From a virus: 64,000 bases of DNA. Every line of letters begins with the position of its first letter. Position 1 is the first letter of the stretch. The notes below the pieces were generated by a model. It saw only the letters and a program-made list of their open reading frames with translations, did not search any database and had not been told where the DNA came from. A program made the translations under genes and the position numbers. The stretch covers positions 1 to 64,000 of IMG/VR virus record IMGVR_UViG_3300032157_000001. The stretch is one strand, 5' to 3'. This document shows positions 9,478 through 18,937 of the stretch, in pieces.

Positions 9478-10656
9478 TTAAGTTAATAACGGTGCTTCAA
9501 TCTTACCCAACGATTCATAATTCTCAACCTTACAATCTTCCAACGTAAAGTCTGTGATGTTTTTCACATCAGGATTGATAACCAGTTTGGCGTTACTTTC
9601 AAACAACTCGTAACCGGATTGTCCATCAAGCAATGTTTGAAGTTTATCTTCAACTCTTGAGAGCCACTTTGTTGCTGCATCGATGTGTGCATTGTATAAG
9701 TGACAGTCAACCATTTCACACGAAAGAATCATTGGTAGCATATTCACACACTGTGCAATCATCGACAAAAACAAAGCATATGATGCAATGTTATAGGGAT
9801 TGCCCAAGAAGAAATCATTTGATCTGATATTGACCAGTACTGAGATGTACCTACGGGGAACACCGAGTGCATCCAATCTTGTATGGATGTCCGTTAATGT
9901 TTCGTTTGTTATTTCAAGTTTGCGTTTTCCGAATTTATAGAACACAAATCTTTCAGCAAGCTCTTGTAATTCGGGTGTCATCAAATTATTATCCACAGCA
10001 TATTTGACACGCTTGTTCAAATCAATTGGCTGAGTGTAGAACTGCATGTAGTTGTGACATGATGGGAGACCAACATTACCGTCCTTAATGTCTGCGGGGT
10101 TGTGGGCAGTGATGATCATTCTACGATCATCCGGGTCTGATTTCAGTTTTGAAATTACATCATTCAATTGATCAACCTTACCACCGAAAGCTCTCCACTG
10201 ACGACCATAAACAATGTCAAGATCGCCGAATGTGTATTCTATATCCTGCACCCAATTTCTTCCGTCAGCAAGTTGACCTCTTTTAATCAAGTCAATTTTG
10301 TGACCAACTTTTACTTGTTCAATGAATTCGGCTTTCTCCATTACGGGAGCACCAAGGGGAACATACTTCTCATTATACCAACGGAAGGCATCATCATTCC
10401 AGATGTTGCATTTGTTGTCAACAAGAAACTTTATGTTTGTGTTACCGGCAATAAACCAAAGTAACTCAACGTAGATGTTCTTGAAAGAAGTCTGTTTGAT
10501 ATTCATGAGCGGGAATTCCGCTCTGAGGTCGACTTTCATTTTTTCTGAAAATCTGCTTCGTGCATCTCCAACACGGGTCTTTACTTCCTTGTCTGGATTT
10601 GTGAGTAATTCGGTAAGAGTTTCGTAGTATTGGAGTTGATACGGCTTAATTGTCAT
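9478..10656 (-). CDS. thyA: thymidylate synthase with an unusual insertion
   Basis: Makes dTMP from dUMP using methylene-tetrahydrofolate, supplying nucleotides for phage DNA. The 392 residues carry Y-G-R-Q-W-R (150-155), the nucleophile in L-P-S-C-H-N (C200), R-S-N-D-F-F-L-G-N-P-Y-N-I-A-S-Y-A (278-294) and a D-C-H-L-Y-N-A-H-I phosphate/dUMP-binding motif. Asn289, which selects the uracil ring, is kept; dCMP hydroxymethylases have Asp there, so this is not a base-modifying homologue. Between C200 and R278 there are about 58 more residues than in Escherichia coli ThyA. The start overlaps the preceding gene by 11 bases. Confidence 0.95.
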   Translation of the reverse strand: MTIKPYQLQYYETLTELLTNPDKEVKTRVGDARSRFSEKMKVDLRAEFPLMNIKQTSFKNIYVELLWFIAGNTNIKFLVDNKCNIWNDDAFRWYNEKYVPLGAPVMEKAEFIEQVKVGHKIDLIKRGQLADGRNWVQDIEYTFGDLDIVYGRQWRAFGGKVDQLNDVISKLKSDPDDRRMIITAHNPADIKDGNVGLPSCHNYMQFYTQPIDLNKRVKYAVDNNLMTPELQELAERFVFYKFGKRKLEITNETLTDIHTRLDALGVPRRYISVLVNIRSNDFFLGNPYNIASYALFLSMIAQCVNMLPMILSCEMVDCHLYNAHIDAATKWLSRVEDKLQTLLDGQSGYELFESNAKLVINPDVKNITDFTLEDCKVENYESLGKIEAPLLT

Positions 10657-11905
10657 AAAGTTGCTTTCGGATTGCGATAAGTTTATCGTTCAGATATTGA
10701 AAATCTGATTCGTCCGGCAAGCTACTATTTTTATACAATTCTTCCAAGGAATTAGCAATATTTTCAGCGTAAGCCATCGCTACGTCATATTCGACGTTTC
10801 CAAGCTTTATATCCATCAGGAATTGACGATCTTCAGTCCGTTTGAGGATTATACCCTTTCCTTCTGCGATCTCCCTAGCCACGCTCAGGAGCCTTACACA
10901 GTGGGATATGTTTTTGGTGTCATAATCCTGCTTAAGGTTGTTATTATGTCGTTCAGGGTTCCGTTTTTCGACCCAATCCCAATATTCCCGGTATTCTCTA
11001 CAATGTTGGACATAACCGTCCTTGTTGTATGTGAAATATCCAATAAATTCTATGTCGGGAGAAAATGTTGATCCTCTCCTATTGAGACCAACCATCGGTA
11101 AATCCATCCAATTTTTAGGTATTGATGACAACCGGATTTCATTGGAATTTTCCATTTCAATACCTTTGAATCCGTAACCCATTGGAAACCCATAGCTTCT
11201 TCGTTCCTCCTTTATGTTTTCAATGCTTATATCATCCATTCGTTGATCACCAAATAACATATGTGATGTCCTGTCGTAGTATAATGCATAACTATCCTTT
11301 GCATTAGTTAATGCAACGACACCACAAAATTTTTGATCGTACCCATTTTTACTTAGAAACGATCCAAGGCTTTTTGTTTGACCATCTACCATAGCATAGC
11401 AAAAATCAATTGGTGTTTTGCGCTCCGGCTCAACGGGATTAACGATCTTTTTATTCAGACCACGAGCTTTCTTTATTTGGGTTGTTGCGTAGTCTCCAAA
11501 TGTTTTAAAACATTTTTTTGAGAGAATTTTATTGATGTCGATTTCATCGATCAGGTGACTATTATGATTCCATCCAATTACATTATCCATATTTTGATAT
11601 GCAGCAAGCATTTCAAGAACGTTTGGATTTCCTACAGAGAGTAATTCAATAAATTTACCAACCTCCATGTAGGTGATGTCTTGATCAGTTGGTTTTGATT
11701 TTTCGACAACATGATTGTAACTATGATCAGCGCGATGGTGTAATGAATAGAAATCTTCTTTTGTTAAATGATAGATTCCATACACATCACGATCTGACTT
11801 GGGGGTGTGCAGGTTGAAGGCGTATGACCCAATAATAACCTCAGCCAACACTAAATTATTGGCCTTGATGAACTCTTGGGTGTATTTTTCCTTTAAATAG
11901 GGCAT
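10646..11905 (-). CDS. RlaP-like (PF10127-type) nucleotidyltransferase
   Basis: 419 residues. The N-terminus has the polymerase-beta-type signature G-S-Y-A-F (26-30) followed by S-D-R-D-V-Y-G-I (37-44), with a further acidic position near D75. This is the pattern of the RlaP group of predicted nucleotidyltransferases, named for linkage to RNA ligases. Here it is three genes downstream of a Pnkp-type RNA repair enzyme, which fits a role in RNA end repair, for example adding nucleotides to a damaged tRNA end. The substrate is not shown by the sequence. Confidence 0.78.
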   Translation of the reverse strand: MPYLKEKYTQEFIKANNLVLAEVIIGSYAFNLHTPKSDRDVYGIYHLTKEDFYSLHHRADHSYNHVVEKSKPTDQDITYMEVGKFIELLSVGNPNVLEMLAAYQNMDNVIGWNHNSHLIDEIDINKILSKKCFKTFGDYATTQIKKARGLNKKIVNPVEPERKTPIDFCYAMVDGQTKSLGSFLSKNGYDQKFCGVVALTNAKDSYALYYDRTSHMLFGDQRMDDISIENIKEERRSYGFPMGYGFKGIEMENSNEIRLSSIPKNWMDLPMVGLNRRGSTFSPDIEFIGYFTYNKDGYVQHCREYREYWDWVEKRNPERHNNNLKQDYDTKNISHCVRLLSVAREIAEGKGIILKRTEDRQFLMDIKLGNVEYDVAMAYAENIANSLEELYKNSSLPDESDFQYLNDKLIAIRKQLYDN

Positions 11906-11906
11906 A

Positions 11907-12299
11907 TTAGCTTTTTCTTATCAACATAACCTTGTCACTTACCTTATACGCAAGAACGGCTTCTTGGTTGTAGTGTGTGATGGTAAATTTGATGATTTTT
12001 TTAATGATCTTTTTTGAACATTTTACACGCACAGGAATGACTTTGTCCCTGTATAATTTCTCCTGTGAATCGTCTATCCATTCGCCCTTGGCGGTTTTCA
12101 TGATAGTTAGTCCACCAGCAAGAGATTTCACATACGCATCCCATTTTTTGTGATGATCATATGAGAATGGTTGTTCATTTCCAGAGGCTGGAACAAAAAT
12201 TTCCCACATTTTATCCTCTTTCTTAGCTTCATTTTTTGAGGCAACTAAACTACCAACAATTATGAAAAAAATTATTAAAATAACAACTACTGCAGTCAT
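11907..12299 (-). CDS. single-pass membrane protein, unknown
   Basis: 130 residues with an N-terminal membrane helix (about 3-22), then a basic, beta-rich soluble part with no recognised motif. The start overlaps the previous stop by ATGA, and the next gene starts after one base, so it is translated within the RNA repair operon. Its role is unknown. Confidence 0.65.
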   Translation of the reverse strand: MTAVVVILIIFFIIVGSLVASKNEAKKEDKMWEIFVPASGNEQPFSYDHHKKWDAYVKSLAGGLTIMKTAKGEWIDDSQEKLYRDKVIPVRVKCSKKIIKKIIKFTITHYNQEAVLAYKVSDKVMLIRKS

Positions 12300-12682
12300 G
12301 ATTTTTTCTTGATTATAGTTTTTAATTCATTTTCATATGCGACTTTTTCGCCATATGCTCTTTCGGCTTCGGGACTATTGAAAAGTTCACCAATGATGTT
12401 ACCTTTCCATCTTATGTTACTTTTGTATTCATCAACTTTTTCCACCATTCCACAATCATACAAAGCCTTGATCTCTGACTCAAATCGGAGTATGGGCCTA
12501 AAAGGTAATAACTCTCCATTGAATCTGGTTATTAATGTTCTGAAAAAATGTGCCAAGCTTATGTCGGGAGCATTTCTCCATATCCGAAAATGCCATATAC
12601 AATTACTCACATGTTGATGTGACATATGTTCATGTGAAACAACCTCACCAGAAAATGTCGTCTGTGTTATAGGTTTTTTCAT
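12296..12682 (-). CDS. hypothetical protein
   Basis: 128 residues, soluble, with a His-rich N-terminus (residues 17-31) and W and R residues in the first half. It could be a small winged-helix-like fold, but no family is recognised. It is linked to Pnkp by an ATGA overlap and to the membrane protein gene downstream in the same way. Confidence 0.65.
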   Translation of the reverse strand: MKKPITQTTFSGEVVSHEHMSHQHVSNCIWHFRIWRNAPDISLAHFFRTLITRFNGELLPFRPILRFESEIKALYDCGMVEKVDEYKSNIRWKGNIIGELFNSPEAERAYGEKVAYENELKTIIKKKS

Positions 12683-15390
12683 AACCTTGGATCAAGTTGC
12701 TTTTCTTTCTCTACTTCGATGATCATTTGTGCGAGCAATTGCTTGTATTCTTCATTATCGGTCGTTATTTTATTGTACGGTGTTCTGAGCATTTTCATCC
12801 CCAACTCGAATTCCTTTATTGAAGTCTGCAACTTTTTCTTAACACCCTTCTTCTTTATAAGCTTGTCGAATTTCTTTTCAAACTTATAGTTGTGTCCATA
12901 AACAATTGTTAGATAGTCTTCGTTTCTCACTTTGATATATGGAGCAATCCCCGGAGTGTACACCTTCTCTGGTTTGATAACAATACCCTCCATTCCCATC
13001 CTTCTGGTAATATGATCATAGAAGTTGTTGGACGTATTTAACGACTTACCAGCACCAGCCACATTGTTAAGTGATACGTGATAATCGTTTTCAGCTAGTT
13101 CATGTGACTTGAAATTCTTAAGTCTCTCATCCTCATCAAAATTAAGAACAGCAAATGGACGATCAGACACCATACGATACATGGCGATGTTACTTTCATT
13201 TTCAAAAAGAAACTCACTGTCATCATCCAATACAACTTTTAATATTGCGAATGGCTGAATATCAACTGCAGCAGATTCACTACCATGAAGTTCAAGCTGT
13301 GATTTGAAGTTGTTTGAGTACTTCATTTCTTCAGACAGACTCAAATGATTATAGTCATACAAATTCCGGAAGGTTCTTTCCTTGGTGTGTCCATACTTCT
13401 CGGTAAGAGCATCTTTCTTTTCATTCTTACGATCTTCCAAGTATTGTTGATAATCCTCTCTCTTTTTGAATGATTCGAGTATGTTTTCAAATCCATGCTC
13501 TTCAAGTAGTTTGGATTCACTCTCAACAGCAAGTGATACTGGTCTAAAGTGATTATCAATCAGTCCACCACCAATCAAATTCCAAGGTAAAATTTCCGCA
13601 TCCAAAATGATCAACTTGACGTTTTTGTTTACGAACACTTTAGGAAAAATGCGTTCAGCCAAATTAGCAATTACCGGACGCAACAATTCCATCACACTAT
13701 CCTTTACTCGGTAACCGTTTCTTGTTACCACATAAGATTGTGCAACGTCTTTGAAAAGATAAACGTTTCCGCGACTACCCATGTACTTCGGCTGCATGAT
13801 CAGACTCTTAACACCAGCATTTTTATAATACATGATCGCTTGGTTGAGCGATTCAAGAGTGTTATTCCCAACATCTTTGTCGGCAGGTGCCATCGTACCA
13901 GAAATAAAATTTACCTTTTCAAGACAAAGAAATTTAATGCGAGTCTGTTCTTTTGGTTCAAGTTCGCTCAGATCAAATCTTTTTTTTTCGATGAAAAGAG
14001 GAAATATTTCGCCAGTACTTTCACGTCTTGATTTCACCGACTTGAATCTTGGCTGACCTGAAATTGGTATTTCAATGGAAGTTAATTTACCACCTGCAAC
14101 ACAACCAGTATCAATCATAAACTTGTTGTTAAATTGAACAACATTCGGTAACATGACGTGTCCGACGATATGATATGGATTGTTGTAGCGTGACTCTTCT
14201 TTCATGAAGGCCATTTCCTTTTCTGCATTGGTTGTGAATTCTTCTTCTGTGTTGAACTCTCTTCTTCTTGCGAATCTGAAATTTCGTTGGTGTTTCAAAC
14301 AATGTCCTCTAACCTTACCCAAATACTCTATCTTGCAAGGAGCATGTGTTGCAATGAATCTATCCGTTGCATAGAAATCTTTTGATAGATCAAACAATTC
14401 AAAGAATTTCTCCTTAAGCTCAGGGTCGGCGTTAAATATGTCAACACTTTGAATGAAGCTTTTAATGAATTCTTCGCCCAATTCAGTGTATGGTTTTACC
14501 CCTTTCAAATAATTGAATACAAAATTCTCGTGATTTCCACGAACAAGGAATGCTTCGCCACTCTTCACCAAATAGTGAACAAAGTTAATCACTTCAGGGA
14601 TTTGATCGCCCTTATCAACCAAATCACCGATAAAGATAATCTTGGTATTTTGCAGGTTTGTCCGCACAGAGTTATCGTCTGTGTGAAATGTATAGCCGTG
14701 TTCCAACAACAACTCCATCAATTCATCATAACATCCGTGGACATCTCCGATGATAATGTAATTGCTATTTGGATTAAGAAAATGCTCACTAAATTTTTGA
14801 AAATTTTCAATTTCGATTACAATCTCAGAGAAGTTGATCGACTTAACTTTAGATTGGTTTGGGTATTCTTTTTTCGACAATTCGAAAAGTTTGTCTTTGA
14901 ATCTTCTGATTGAGTCGGACACTGCTTTTGTACGTGAGTGTTCTCCACCAAGATGTTTGAAGTAATCATCACGATTCTTGTAGTCGAAAACAATCAATTG
15001 CAGACTGTAGTTTGCATCGTTCGTAATCTGTGCGACTTCCTTGCGGAAATTTTCAGACATACCGGTTGTATCAACGATAATAAAGTCAGCGTTGACGGGA
15101 TATGACAGTACTGCAGCAAGTTTGGTTTTCAACATTGTGAAGGCTTGCTCACTAACAAAGTCCATATTTTTATCATCTTTCTCATCTACCATGCTGTTAT
15201 AATTAACACCAAGCATGTCACGGCGGAAATGATCTGACGATAGATGTTGAATATTCAGAGTCTTATAAATGTGGCGATTTTGTCGTTGTAATTGGGGAAT
15301 AAGTACCTTTTCGGCAAAGTAAGTTTTACCACATTCGCTAGGGCCAACGAACATTATTACGGTCTGTGGTTTAATTTTTATAGTATCCAT
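12679..15390 (-). CDS. pnkp: Pnkp: RNA 5'-kinase, phosphatase and ligase
   Basis: A 903-residue RNA repair enzyme with the module order of bacterial Pnkp (Clostridium thermocellum enzyme, 870 residues). The kinase module has a P-loop G-P-S-E-C-G-K-T (16-23). The metallophosphatase module has G-D-V-H-G (215-219), G-D-L-V-D-K-G (255-261), R-G-N-H-E (284-288) and a V-G-H near 410. The ligase module has K-Y-M-G-S-R-G with the predicted adenylated Lys535, D-A-E-I (597-600), E-G-I-V-I-K-P (801-807) and I-K-V-R-N (819-823). It heals and seals cut RNA ends; in bacteria the ligase needs Hen1, which is encoded upstream in this operon. The ATG at 15390 is chosen over one 96 bases earlier because it matches the family start and leaves the zinc-ribbon gene intact. 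Confidence 0.93.
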   Translation of the reverse strand: MDTIKIKPQTVIMFVGPSECGKTYFAEKVLIPQLQRQNRHIYKTLNIQHLSSDHFRRDMLGVNYNSMVDEKDDKNMDFVSEQAFTMLKTKLAAVLSYPVNADFIIVDTTGMSENFRKEVAQITNDANYSLQLIVFDYKNRDDYFKHLGGEHSRTKAVSDSIRRFKDKLFELSKKEYPNQSKVKSINFSEIVIEIENFQKFSEHFLNPNSNYIIIGDVHGCYDELMELLLEHGYTFHTDDNSVRTNLQNTKIIFIGDLVDKGDQIPEVINFVHYLVKSGEAFLVRGNHENFVFNYLKGVKPYTELGEEFIKSFIQSVDIFNADPELKEKFFELFDLSKDFYATDRFIATHAPCKIEYLGKVRGHCLKHQRNFRFARRREFNTEEEFTTNAEKEMAFMKEESRYNNPYHIVGHVMLPNVVQFNNKFMIDTGCVAGGKLTSIEIPISGQPRFKSVKSRRESTGEIFPLFIEKKRFDLSELEPKEQTRIKFLCLEKVNFISGTMAPADKDVGNNTLESLNQAIMYYKNAGVKSLIMQPKYMGSRGNVYLFKDVAQSYVVTRNGYRVKDSVMELLRPVIANLAERIFPKVFVNKNVKLIILDAEILPWNLIGGGLIDNHFRPVSLAVESESKLLEEHGFENILESFKKREDYQQYLEDRKNEKKDALTEKYGHTKERTFRNLYDYNHLSLSEEMKYSNNFKSQLELHGSESAAVDIQPFAILKVVLDDDSEFLFENESNIAMYRMVSDRPFAVLNFDEDERLKNFKSHELAENDYHVSLNNVAGAGKSLNTSNNFYDHITRRMGMEGIVIKPEKVYTPGIAPYIKVRNEDYLTIVYGHNYKFEKKFDKLIKKKGVKKKLQTSIKEFELGMKMLRTPYNKITTDNEEYKQLLAQMIIEVEKEKQLDPRL

Positions 15391-15409
15391 ATTATGTCTT
15401 GTACGTAAA

Positions 15410-15628
15410 TTATTGTTGCGGGGTTGTAACTTTAGCCAATTTTGAACAAAAAATTTTGCTTGCCAGACCACAAGTCTGACAAACATACATCCATTTCACG
15501 TAATACTGTGGGGTAAAAAGCCTTTTGGTGTTTCTTGGTGCTTCCATTTGAACAACACTGCCTTTACAGTCTCCACAAATTACGTCTGCCGGTTCAAACT
15601 CTGGTGATTGCAGTGGCGTTTCATCCAT
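15410..15628 (-). CDS. small zinc-ribbon protein
   Basis: 72 residues with two C-x-x-C pairs (C-G-D-C and C-Q-T-C) spaced as in a zinc ribbon. The ATG at 15628 overlaps the preceding gene by 8 bases; longer in-frame starts back to 15691 would overlap more. It lies 19 bases before Pnkp. It may bind nucleic acid or bridge proteins in the repair pathway, but no family is recognised. Confidence 0.65.
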   Translation of the reverse strand: MDETPLQSPEFEPADVICGDCKGSVVQMEAPRNTKRLFTPQYYVKWMYVCQTCGLASKIFCSKLAKVTTPQQ

Positions 15629-15896
15629 AAAGAAATTCCTCATTTTTATCGACAACCTGTTTGCAAAGCTTATAAAGTTGGTCATCTTCAAGTATGATAA
15701 ATTTGTAGTAAGAATTTGTCGTGCTCATTTGAGCATGAATACCACAACTCTGATCAATAAATGAGGAAATATATTGCAACCTGAGTTTTGCTTCTGCAGG
15801 TGTCATATGCCCCTCACCAACTTCAATCAATAGGTTCCTTAGATACCATTGAATTTGTGGTTCAATTATTTCTGATGGTATTTTTTGTGGTTCCAT
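15621..15896 (-). CDS. hypothetical protein
   Basis: 91 residues, helical, acidic, with no recognised motif. The start overlaps the end of the Mesh1-like gene by 35 bases and the end overlaps the zinc-ribbon start, so it is embedded in the repair operon. Its function is unknown. Confidence 0.6.
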   Translation of the reverse strand: MEPQKIPSEIIEPQIQWYLRNLLIEVGEGHMTPAEAKLRLQYISSFIDQSCGIHAQMSTTNSYYKFIILEDDQLYKLCKQVVDKNEEFLYG

Positions 15897-16407
15897 TTAT
15901 TTTCTTATCAATCAGTTTAATCAACTTCTTATGCGTCTTGGTTAGCTTCCTCTTTTTCAACTCACGAATGATGTAGTTTGTTTCAATAATTTTGTGAGTG
16001 TGTTTATTTGGATCAACATCTTCAAGATTATCAAGTCTGTCTGCAAGCTTTATGCGAAGTGCATAGGAACTCATTTTTCTCATCTTCTCAGCAAGATACA
16101 CAGCCTTTCCCACTCTCTTTACTTCAACAGGGTCTGATGTTAATTCCCCAACAAGAGATGATACAGAATGACCGAATTCCTTTGCAATTTCTTCCAGAGT
16201 AACTTCACAATCTTCTACAACATCATGTAGAACGCAAGCTATTGCGATAAGCGGAAAATTATTTGACTTTTTGATTTTACCTAAAGTGATAAGAACAGAA
16301 AGAGGATGAAGAATATAAGGTCTTCCATCATCTTTCCGGCGTTGTCCTTTGTGTTTCTCTGTAGCAAACAAAATTGCTTTCTCCAATAAATCAGAATTTA
16401 CTTTCAT
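15862..16407 (-). CDS. Mesh1-like HD-domain (p)ppGpp hydrolase
   Basis: 181 residues, the size of a stand-alone small alarmone hydrolase. HD-family residues are in place: K-H-K-G-Q-R-R-K-D-D-G-R-P-Y-I-L-H-P (18-35, H34), L-H-D-V-V-E-D (60-66, H61/D62 and E65/D66) and K-L-A-D-R-L-D-N-L (120-128, D123). This wording is that of the RelA/SpoT hydrolase domain and its Mesh1 relatives, which remove the 3'-pyrophosphate of (p)ppGpp. There is no synthetase domain. Its ATG overlaps the Hen1 stop by 4 bases. In a phage it would lower host alarmone levels. The exact nucleotide substrate is inferred. Confidence 0.88.
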   Translation of the reverse strand: MKVNSDLLEKAILFATEKHKGQRRKDDGRPYILHPLSVLITLGKIKKSNNFPLIAIACVLHDVVEDCEVTLEEIAKEFGHSVSSLVGELTSDPVEVKRVGKAVYLAEKMRKMSSYALRIKLADRLDNLEDVDPNKHTHKIIETNYIIRELKKRKLTKTHKKLIKLIDKKINGTTKNTIRNN

Positions 16408-17699
16408 CGCTTTGTAAAAATAACCGCTTGTGAAACATGAATACCATTTACACTGTCACCAACACCATGAAATTCGAACCCATATTTTTTGGCAATACCG
16501 TATTTACCAACAAAATCGATGACAAAATTTTTGAAATCGATCTCATTAAATTCAAATTTGTGATCAGCGTGTCTAAATCCTTGCAGGGCATAGAACTTAT
16601 TAAAGTCAGAGTTTGGTGTTGTGATTACAATTCTCTGAGCTTCTCCAATTTTGAAAAGACTTGCCATGAATTCTTCCACAGCATCAAATTCAAGGTGTTC
16701 TATTACTTCTGAACACACAACATCAAACGGATGTGTTTCATCTACAGAATTAATAAACGTATCAATTGAGTCATATATCGTTACGTTCTCGACACACTTT
16801 CTCTTGATGGTTTTTGCCAGCCCTTCGCGAACTTCGGGATCAATATCAATTGCATGAACATGTGCCACTTTCTTTGAGAAAGGTATTGTATATCGTCCTT
16901 CACCACATCCAACGTCAACGATGTTGAACATGAACTTAAGATTATCGTTTACAAATTGAATTCTCTGCTCGTGTGTGTCTCCGGGTTTGAAGACAATTTT
17001 TTGACGACTGCTCATCTCAAGATCAGTTTTATACTGCTTGAATAACGATGGCTTTTCATTGATTACACGAAGTTTAAACAGGTATCTGATGTAGTATTCT
17101 ACATCAAGATTGTTCATTACCTTCATGAATCTATCCACCAAACCTTCTTCGATGAAAAGATATTCATTATCGTTGATAAGTATTAAAAAGACTGAAAGCA
17201 ACGACAAATAATTGATCATGTCGTGCATTGTACGCTTCGTCTTTATTGTCAAACGATACTCATGGCCAACCAACTGCTCATAGGTCATTTCGATCCCCGG
17301 TATTGATTTGGCGAAAAACTCCAAGTATTTCGGGATACCCACGTGCACCATATTAACGGTCACGGTGTGCTCATAACCAGCAACATCTCGTGAACATTCT
17401 TTATAGCGATTGTTTTCAAGATGACCCAACAATTCTTTTATTGAATTGAAGATGAACATCGATGAATTGTATCGTGTTGGATTCAAGTACTCATACTCTT
17501 CGTCGGGGTGTGATTTGTATGACACTTCATCATCACCATCTCTGAAATAAATCACAAAAGTTTGTGGGTCTGACTTGGAATAAAATCCAAACAGATTACC
17601 GAACCGCAATGATTTTACAACCAGCGGTGTGGTTTCCGGATTCTTTTGGAGAATGTAGGACAGATCAGGATTTTCAGACTTTAATAAAATTAGTGACAT
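16404..17699 (-). CDS. hen1: Hen1 RNA 3'-terminal 2'-O-methyltransferase, bacterial type
   Basis: 431 residues. The N-terminal half (1-240) resembles the bacterial Hen1 ligase-activating domain (family-like start, L-N-P-T-R-Y-N-S-S-M-F near 72-82). The C-terminal half is a class I methyltransferase with D-V-G-C-G-E-G-R-Y (262-270), the metal motif E-V-I-E-H (E331, E334, H335), T-T-P-N-S-D-F-N (360-367) and R-H-A-D-H-K-F-E-F (376-384). In bacteria Hen1 methylates the 2'-OH at the break before Pnkp seals it, so the same site cannot be cut again. The ATG at 17699 fits the family start. The gene lies three genes upstream of Pnkp. Confidence 0.93.
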   Translation of the reverse strand: MSLILLKSENPDLSYILQKNPETTPLVVKSLRFGNLFGFYSKSDPQTFVIYFRDGDDEVSYKSHPDEEYEYLNPTRYNSSMFIFNSIKELLGHLENNRYKECSRDVAGYEHTVTVNMVHVGIPKYLEFFAKSIPGIEMTYEQLVGHEYRLTIKTKRTMHDMINYLSLLSVFLILINDNEYLFIEEGLVDRFMKVMNNLDVEYYIRYLFKLRVINEKPSLFKQYKTDLEMSSRQKIVFKPGDTHEQRIQFVNDNLKFMFNIVDVGCGEGRYTIPFSKKVAHVHAIDIDPEVREGLAKTIKRKCVENVTIYDSIDTFINSVDETHPFDVVCSEVIEHLEFDAVEEFMASLFKIGEAQRIVITTPNSDFNKFYALQGFRHADHKFEFNEIDFKNFVIDFVGKYGIAKKYGFEFHGVGDSVNGIHVSQAVIFTKR

Positions 17700-18669
17700 A
17701 GTATTGTAAAATATCTTCTTTGATTTTTTTCTCGTCTGTACCAAGGGCATAATTAACAAAATCTTTACCGCCCTTTAGATTTTTGAATTCTCCAATGAAC
17801 TGACCTAACTTCTTGCCGGAGATGTCCTGTATAATTTGCATCACAATTCTACCGTTGAACTTCTGTGAAGCCATTTCAAGATTCATCTGTAGTTCTTCAT
17901 GTGCTGCAACCTTATTCACCAAGTTTGACTTAGGGAACGCCTCTTGGATCATCGGTACATAAACTGATTTATCCTTATTGAATGGATAATTCTTTTCAAT
18001 TCCATTGTCGTGCAAATAATCCAAGAAGGTATTGAAGTCAGGTCGTTCGCCAGCACGTTTCCTCACGTTGAAATAGTCAAGCGAGTATGAATTCGAGCAG
18101 AAGTATTTGCTGCCGATCACGTAATCAAAAATATCCTGTAGGTCATCAAATCCCCTCTCCCATCTATCGCGATCAAGATCGATGAATTCAAATATCTTAC
18201 GCATATCACGAGTCAAGATAATTTCCTTGGAGATGTGATTGTTGAACCCACGAAGAACGTAGCTCAGGCCATGCTCACCATACTTCAAATTGAACTTATG
18301 AAACATTCTCCCGATCAAATTACCGAGGATGTTGTAGCACATGAATTGATACGTGGTTTCAAATCGCGCAGTACCAGCACAGAAGAAGTCAACTTGGAAG
18401 TCCATGTAGTGGAGTGAGGTAACGTTACGCACTTTCTTAAAGGGCGGGTTACCGAGATCATCCAGTACTGGCTGTAACCATTTTTTATTCACAAGGAAGC
18501 CAGCGTCCAGAATAATGTCCACGTCTCCGTAGTCCACCTTGTTCCGGTAGGGCTTGGGCATTCTATAGTAGTTACCAAAATGTTTATCCAGCACCGGAAT
18601 CAGTGTGGACACAATTTCGTCGTATCGCTCTCTACTTACCCTTTGAACTTTATATAGGTTTCCTCCCAT
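17674..18669 (-). CDS. polymerase-beta-type nucleotidyltransferase
   Basis: 331 residues. The signature D-Y-G-D-V-D-I-I-L (47-55) and a later F-Q-V-D-F-F (near 91-96) supply the three acidic residues of a nucleotidyltransferase active site. The rest is helical and unassigned. The gene precedes Hen1 and overlaps it by 26 bases. Together with the RlaP-like gene this makes two nucleotidyltransferases in one RNA repair operon; replacing nucleotides lost from a cleaved RNA is one possible role. It could act on a different substrate. Confidence 0.68.
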   Translation of the reverse strand: MGGNLYKVQRVSRERYDEIVSTLIPVLDKHFGNYYRMPKPYRNKVDYGDVDIILDAGFLVNKKWLQPVLDDLGNPPFKKVRNVTSLHYMDFQVDFFCAGTARFETTYQFMCYNILGNLIGRMFHKFNLKYGEHGLSYVLRGFNNHISKEIILTRDMRKIFEFIDLDRDRWERGFDDLQDIFDYVIGSKYFCSNSYSLDYFNVRKRAGERPDFNTFLDYLHDNGIEKNYPFNKDKSVYVPMIQEAFPKSNLVNKVAAHEELQMNLEMASQKFNGRIVMQIIQDISGKKLGQFIGEFKNLKGGKDFVNYALGTDEKKIKEDILQYYVTNFIKV

Positions 18670-18937
18670 ATGCTTCTACAATTTGGTCATAATGTTTTTC
18701 ACTCTCCGATGTCATTTGTTGATGTTCTTCTTTTATGAAAGGAAGACATGTTGATACAAAGGCACCCACCGTTGGCATACCGGTTTCTTTTAATTTTTCT
18801 CTCCACAGTGCTGAGGCTAACGACATCAGATGACCGTAACCAATTTTATCTCCAAGCTCTCTAACGATTTCGATTTCATTTGAAAGTTTATCTTGTACGA
18901 ATTTAGGATATGGTACTTTGTTCGTTTTCATTTTCAT
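18650..18937 (-). CDS. hypothetical protein
   Basis: 95 residues, helical, no recognised motif. It overlaps the genes on either side (35 and 20 bases), which suggests translational coupling. ATG codons at 18937 and 18931 are both possible starts. Confidence 0.6.
   Translation of the reverse strand: MKMKTNKVPYPKFVQDKLSNEIEIVRELGDKIGYGHLMSLASALWREKLKETGMPTVGAFVSTCLPFIKEEHQQMTSESEKHYDQIVEAYGRKPI

Follow-up and report, generated by a model that had tools for sequence, protein, structure and literature searches.

The first 64,000 bases of the virus record IMGVR_UViG_3300032157_000001 (371,504 bases) are referred to here as the window. They contain a leftward operon encoding an RNA methyltransferase, Hen1, and a kinase-phosphatase-ligase, Pnkp, together with two nucleotidyltransferases and further genes. 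Elsewhere the window encodes a T4-like major head protein, a tail sheath, a helicase, and DNA-metabolism genes, which mark the source as a jumbo phage of the myovirus type. Within the phage collection, its head protein comes closest to those of Flavobacterium phages (31% identity), a similarity that may tentatively hint at a Bacteroidota host. The open reading frames (ORFs) of the operon, described in a first-pass annotation made from the sequence alone, were confirmed as tightly packed on the minus strand and are given here in the order of transcription:

17674-18669, minus strand: NTase2, a nucleotidyltransferase of the pol-β fold with a PolX-like palm and a C-terminal helical domain (phrog_24943, AlphaFold2, Foldseek)
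16404-17699, minus strand: Hen1 (431 amino acids), a PF22032 N-domain and an S-adenosylmethionine (SAM)-dependent RNA 3'-ribose 2'-O-methyltransferase
15862-16407, minus strand: predicted HD-domain small alarmone hydrolase, MESH1-like (HD_4; motifs HD..ED and KLADRLDN)
15621-15896, minus strand: 91-amino-acid ORF with no assigned function
15410-15691, minus strand: zinc ribbon with a CxxC...CxxC pattern
12679-15390, minus strand: Pnkp (903 amino acids), a 5'-OH kinase, a calcineurin-type 2',3' phosphatase, and an Rnl-type ligase with an insertion module
12296-12682, minus strand: backbone ORF with no assigned function, directly after the zinc ribbon in two relatives (L222 and L223) where Pnkp is absent
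11907-12299, minus strand: backbone gene for a putative SAM-lyase-like protein of PII/CutA fold with an N-terminal transmembrane helix
10646-11905, minus strand: nucleotidyltransferase of the RlaP family, pol-β type (PF10127; motif GS..SDRD)
9478-10656, minus strand: thymidylate synthase (ThyA; PF00303, 4.5e-63), the end of the conserved backbone operon

NTase2 and Hen1 overlap by 26 bp, RlaP and ThyA by 11 bp, and the Hen1/HD, Pnkp/12296, and 12296/11907 junctions by 4 bp each. A promoter scan found promoter-like sites at chance level and terminator-like sites slightly above chance.

The N-terminal half of Hen1 matches PF22032 (Hen1_N) at 5e-59 (200 bits against a cutoff of 27), and methyltransferase domains occupy the C-terminal half. 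Its best match in the PDB, CgiHen1 of Capnocytophaga gingivalis (4xrp; 3e-32), spans residues 4-430, the full length of the protein. These searches bear out the first-pass description of a full-length Hen1 with an N-terminal ligase-activating domain and the metal-site residues E331, E334, and H335 (EVIEH). H380, the second His of the site (RHxDH), is the probable fourth metal ligand; all four residues are invariant in an alignment of 111 relatives. The same annotation called the protein bacterial-type, which does not hold in the canonical sense. PF12623, the N-domain of canonical bacterial Hen1, had no match in the window Hen1, whereas the Deinococcus gobiensis control matched at 1.5e-107, and the window protein reached 93 bits against the TIGR04074 cutoff of 340. 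In a Hen1 tree, a branch with 100/100 support divides canonical Hen1 from a clade holding the window sequence, Capnocytophaga, Bacillota, and all viral sequences used. By these sequence criteria, the window Hen1 is therefore of the Capnocytophaga (PF22032) type rather than the canonical one. A PADLOC match of Hen1 to "mad2" was rejected as generic methyltransferase similarity.

Pnkp carries three domains with their active residues in one chain, as first annotated. The kinase contains the P-loop GPSECGKT (residues 16-23), D53, and R56; the phosphatase is a metallophosphoesterase (PF00149, 1.8e-13) with GDVHG at 215, GDLVDKG at 255, GNHE at 285, H349, and H411; and the ligase matches PNKP_ligase (PF16542, 6e-32), with Lys535 within QPKYMGSRG. 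CgiRnl (4xru) aligns over its full length with the ligase region (8e-55), insertion module included, whereas the Clostridium Pnkp ligase aligns over a short C-terminal stretch only (~1e-11). Against TIGR04075 the protein scores 227 bits, the cutoff being 750. Apart from a few gapped or aberrant rows among the 104-111 relatives aligned, all three domains keep their catalytic residues: the P-loop Lys in the kinase, the metal ligands in the phosphatase, and Lys535 in the ligase. No loss of Lys535, the P-loop, or the Hen1 metal site was seen, and domains and catalytic residues were found for every step of a heal-methylate-seal pathway.

Several known systems share parts of this arrangement. In the Capnocytophaga gingivalis Pnkp1-Rnl-Hen1 system (4xrp/4xru; PMC4411300), ligase and Hen1 align full length with their window counterparts, the two Hen1 proteins group in the tree, and the heal-methylate-seal chemistry is that predicted for the window; its T4-like Pnkp1, however, is a separate protein, whereas the window has kinase, calcineurin-type phosphatase, and ligase fused. 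Canonical bacterial Pnkp-Hen1 (Anabaena, Clostridium thermocellum; TIGR04074/TIGR04075) likewise combines kinase, metallophosphoesterase, and ligase in one Pnkp, with Hen1 in the same operon and often an adjoining RlaP, but is set apart by the PF12623 domain, the NCBIfam scores, and the 100/100 branch described above. In Bacillota (Paenibacillus, Bacillus, Listeria), a fused Pnkp (861 amino acids) lies beside a Hen1 that is 34-38% identical to that of the window; unlike in the window, these genes are chromosomal and adjacent, and RlaP, NTase2, and HD were not found within 8 kb. The Xanthomonas jumbo phage XacN1 (PMC5852040) encodes dozens of tRNAs alongside its Hen1 repair genes, but kinase (ORF199), Hen1 (ORF198), and ligase (ORF197) are separate proteins. 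ORF197 (L003 11293-12507), termed PNKP in that paper and a metallophosphoesterase in GenBank, matches the ligase domain only, and the immediate ORF197-ORF199 cluster showed no phosphatase. T4 Pnkp and Rnl1 heal and seal cut tRNA, as genes of the window phage also might, but lack Hen1 and methylation. Borgs, another kind of extrachromosomal element, carry a putative Pnkp1-Rnl-Hen1 repair set (PMC11208441); they differ in their archaeal host and in the three-protein form described.

Both nucleotidyltransferases of the first-pass annotation were recovered. RlaP matches PF10127 (4.6e-14, 53 bits against a cutoff of 23) and phrog_388 (5.6e-42), contains the motif GSYAF..SDRD, and is 67-72% identical to its orthologues in the close relatives L149, L222, and L223. 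NTase2 belongs to a phage family distinct from RlaP (phrog_24943, 9e-29); its triad D49, D51, and D94 is invariant in 35 aligned sequences, and its AlphaFold2 model (predicted local distance difference test [pLDDT] 94) matches pol mu/lambda/beta of the PolX family in Foldseek with probability 1.0, at a TM-score of ~0.35 that covers the palm only. The RlaP family has been proposed to restore nucleotides ahead of sealing (PMC7824862), and RlaP adjoins Hen1-Pnkp in unrelated bacteria, in the order Hen1-RlaP-RlaP-Pnkp in Deinococcus gobiensis and Hen1-Pnkp-RlaP in Asticcacaulis and Enterococcus. NTase2 lies directly upstream of Hen1-Pnkp in other viral loci (L014-L019), has a CCA enzyme as its neighbor in one Pseudomonas phage, and follows a tRNA array near a polynucleotide kinase (PNK) in Stenotrophomonas phages, company that makes a role in nucleotide add-back plausible. 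The add-back suggested at first pass is thus plausible for both enzymes and does not depend on Hen1: RlaP and NTase2 also occur in relatives without Hen1-Pnkp and belong to the phage backbone.

The alarmone hydrolase assignment also stands, with the substrate predicted. The HD protein matches HD_4 (4.9e-17), its best PDB matches are MESH1 structures (3nqw, 3nr1, and 5vxa; 2e-17 to 4e-16), and it contains the small-alarmone-hydrolase motifs HD..ED and KxxDRxxN. In Salmonella phage SSU5, an enzyme of this class undoes the pyrophosphorylation of tRNA by the toxSAS FaRel2 (PMC11559606), so by analogy tRNA rescue would be as reasonable a role here as alarmone clearance. For the zinc ribbon, the CxxC...CxxC pattern is present and Pfam zinc-ribbon matches are sub-threshold only; its orthologues in L149, L150, L222, and L223 are 65-68 amino acids long, and translation probably starts at an internal ATG. 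No homologue of the 91-amino-acid ORF was seen at the corresponding site in these four relatives. The 11907-12299 protein gave a borderline match to the SAM lyase family PF23780 (3.7e-6, 27.4 bits against a cutoff of 28), and its AlphaFold2 model (pLDDT 84; best Foldseek match CutA1, 3.7e-5) predicts a CutA-like fold. This SAM-lyase-like gene shares an operon with a SAM-using methylase and is kept in relatives without Hen1 and in viral contigs L225-L235.

Comparison with relatives separated the Hen1-Pnkp pair from its surroundings. L222 and L223, close relatives with about 50-85% protein identity for the operon genes, have the order NTase2, HD, zinc ribbon, 12296, 11907, RlaP, and ThyA, the same as the window without Hen1 and Pnkp. 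At the Hen1 site they carry a small unrelated ORF between NTase2 and HD, and at the Pnkp site the two genes that border Pnkp in the window, the zinc ribbon and 12296, overlap each other. Hen1 and Pnkp are likewise absent from the operons of L149 and L150, and no Hen1 match was found across the whole 366-kb L149 record. ThyA, at the end of the operon, is 61-69% identical to its orthologues in L149, L222, and L223. A tblastn search of the empty sites in L222, L223, L149, and L150 found no remnants of Hen1 or Pnkp (best E value 0.008, antisense, chance). The variable part of the L149 operon contains a Bax1-I (BI-1 family) membrane protein (12232-12912).

The first-pass annotation treated the genes as one island. 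A single mobile cassette was rejected, given that seven of the other genes keep their order in relatives lacking Hen1 and Pnkp; the two occupy separate sites in the window, three genes apart, whereas they are adjacent or nearly so in nearly all other genomes. The window has both and the four close relatives have neither, and this joint presence or absence at two separate sites supports their functioning as a pair. As the backbone operon also exists without it, the pair is an optional extra. A more distant relative, L007, carries Hen1, a kinase, and a fused metallophosphoesterase-ligase at the same locus, beside the orthologue of the window gene at 18903, and its Hen1 is the nearest to that of the window (48% identical; sisters in the tree, 100/99). 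The backbone tree is (L007,(L150,(L149,(window,(L222,L223))))). Since the pair occurs only in L007 and the window, and their Hen1 proteins are sisters, its history needs either two gains or three losses.

The phage record also contains 49 tRNA genes and a T4-type repair kit. An Rnl2-like ligase is encoded at 172 kb and Rnl1 (PF09511) at 191.7 kb, the latter next to tRNA genes clustered at 188-190 kb; the main tRNA array (312-349 kb) encloses both a fusion of HNH with Rnl2 (330 kb) and the T4-type kinase-HAD phosphatase (PNK, PF25109; 335 kb). No match to RtcB was found in the phage. Of 17 further virus records with Hen1 that were checked, 4 also contain Rnl1. The contrast first drawn with T4 does not apply to a genome where PNK, Rnl1, and two Rnl2-like ligases coexist with Hen1-Pnkp; methylating repair does not take the place of the T4-type scheme here but adds a layer to it. 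A microbial-type PARG protein accompanies the HNH-Rnl2 fusion and PNK in the tRNA array (~330-336 kb; L215, L219). A CCA-type PolyA_pol domain at 117 kb belongs to an 863-amino-acid protein (L221 28-2619) with long enzyme-like N-terminal regions, possibly a polyvalent protein.

The reading favored here, at a probability of roughly 0.7, is that Hen1 and Pnkp, members of the divergent PF22032/Rnl clade, work together to heal, methylate, and seal the ends of RNase-cut RNA, likely tRNAs. The Pnkp kinase would phosphorylate the 5'-OH of the cut RNA and its metallophosphoesterase would strip the 2',3'-cyclic phosphate, after which Hen1 would 2'-O-methylate the newly freed 3' end. The CgiRnl insertion module is unlocked by Hen1 (PMC4411300); in the window proteins, the Hen1 N-domain would similarly hold the insertion module of the Pnkp ligase open for sealing, and the mended site would no longer be open to transesterification cleavage. 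Likely substrates are tRNAs, the phage's 49 and the host's, whose anticodon loops would be cut by host defense RNases. RlaP and NTase2 probably re-add nucleotides lost from the ends, and the pair would act beside the separate T4-type PNK/Rnl1/Rnl2 pathway. The predicted enzymology is well supported by domains and residues; we infer from it enzyme activity, methylation-gated ligation, tRNA as the substrate, and a counter-defense role. Several points weigh against this reading. Both proteins fall far under the NCBIfam equivalog cutoffs (93/340 and 227/750 bits), their activity and a host RNase as the cause are predictions from sequence, a second repair route in the same phage clouds the need for and substrate of Hen1-Pnkp, and the close relative L149, with 55 tRNAs, manages without the pair.

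A fairly unlikely extension of this reading, rather than a replacement for it, is an integrated rescue of tRNAs from several lesions by the operon, with HD stripping the 3'-CCA pyrophosphate set by toxSAS defense toxins, the nucleotidyltransferases refilling ends, and Hen1-Pnkp resealing and immunizing. The SSU5 precedent and the MESH1-like character of the HD protein favor this, as does the joint retention of HD, NTase2, and RlaP in four relatives. HD could, however, simply degrade (p)ppGpp, and its counterparts in L149 and L150 are only ~25% identical. A still more speculative form would make the operon a modular tRNA-rescue station that undoes damage from several defenses (nicks left by RNases, lost nucleotides, and, through the MESH1-like HD protein, 3'-CCA pyrophosphorylation by toxSAS), in which the optional Hen1-Pnkp would make mended tRNAs permanently resistant and the T4-type route would handle other breaks.

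It is unlikely that the pair instead serves the phage's own RNA metabolism, resealing or methyl-marking RNAs that phage nucleases or processing events have cut, or shielding phage tRNAs while a phage RNase breaks down host RNA, with counter-defense not primary. The large tRNA complement (49) and the placement of the operon among structural and metabolic genes, outside any recognizable anti-defense cluster, are in line with such a role, but neither a phage anticodon nuclease nor a tRNA intron was found, albeit without a systematic search for either, and a close relative with a similar number of tRNAs lacks the pair. Quite improbable is the idea that Hen1 and Pnkp are recent passengers, acquired intact, of little benefit, and redundant with the T4-type kit: patchy occurrence among close relatives and the PNK, Rnl1, and Rnl2 genes of the same genome speak for it, but both proteins are full length with intact catalytic residues, short overlaps tie them into the operon, and the presence of the nearest Hen1 at the same locus in L007 suggests long persistence.

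The survey for phages sharing the gene order, proposed at first pass, yielded the four relatives that keep the backbone order and, across the viral contigs and phage records scanned, about 28-30 viral loci with Hen1 and Pnkp or a ligase within 10 kb. At least five layouts were seen: Hen1 with a fused kinase-metallophosphoesterase-ligase, the commonest; Hen1, kinase, and metallophosphoesterase-ligase (L007, L010); kinase-metallophosphoesterase, ligase, and Hen1 (L021); a ligase with a Hen1-T4-type kinase-HAD phosphatase fusion (Vibrio RYC, sm033, and L024); and kinase, Hen1, and ligase (XacN1, RAS14). The fusion polypeptides of the fourth layout (L005 10001-12151, L006 9998-12175, and L024 10001-12127) adjoin a separate Rnl ligase, so that in RYC, sm033, and L024 the three-protein Capnocytophaga set is built from two proteins. 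Some Hen1-bearing IMG/VR contigs may be prophages or plasmids rather than lytic phages, and the Hen1 of L008 is placed inside the Bacillota clade.

In bacteria, Hen1 lies within 10 kb of Pnkp or a ligase at all 80 loci examined (the best 80 of 177), and among these the sampled Bacillota proteins form one shallow clade within much deeper viral diversity. Paenibacillus, Brevibacillus, Bacillus, and Listeria include members with the fused kinase-phosphatase-ligase beside Hen1. Because the Bacillota proteins of the window clade (L066-L145) also score far under the NCBIfam cutoffs, public annotation likely misses them; on a Paenibacillus plasmid, Hen1 and Pnkp are annotated merely as a class I SAM-dependent methyltransferase and an AAA family ATPase. 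A Paenibacillus plasmid encodes a Thg1-family tRNA-His guanylyltransferase immediately downstream of its Hen1-Pnkp genes (L242 7936-8263). With Hen1_N matches in 2 of 300 sampled Bacillota genomes, one of them the center genome itself, the family is rare in that phylum.

Phage Hen1/Pnkp is not new: PNKP and Hen1 of XacN1 were linked to tRNA repair already in 2018 (PMC5852040), and a survey of jumbo phages discusses RNA ligases and RlaP without naming Hen1 or Pnkp (PMC7824862). In the literature searched, phage Hen1 amounts to that one short XacN1 passage, without follow-up; here it is joined by ~30 viral examples, at least five viral layouts, and a divergent Bacillota clade missed by NCBIfam cutoffs. 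The window operon is real, intact, and functionally coherent. It holds a divergent version of a methylating repair kit, of a kind that bacteria and a handful of phages are known to have, in a virus already equipped with 49 tRNAs and the older T4-type kit. Its proposed counter-defense role would be open to test, because closely related operons that have or lack the pair constitute a natural experiment on whether phage survival under tRNA-cutting defenses hinges on methylating repair rather than on T4-type repair or spare tRNAs.

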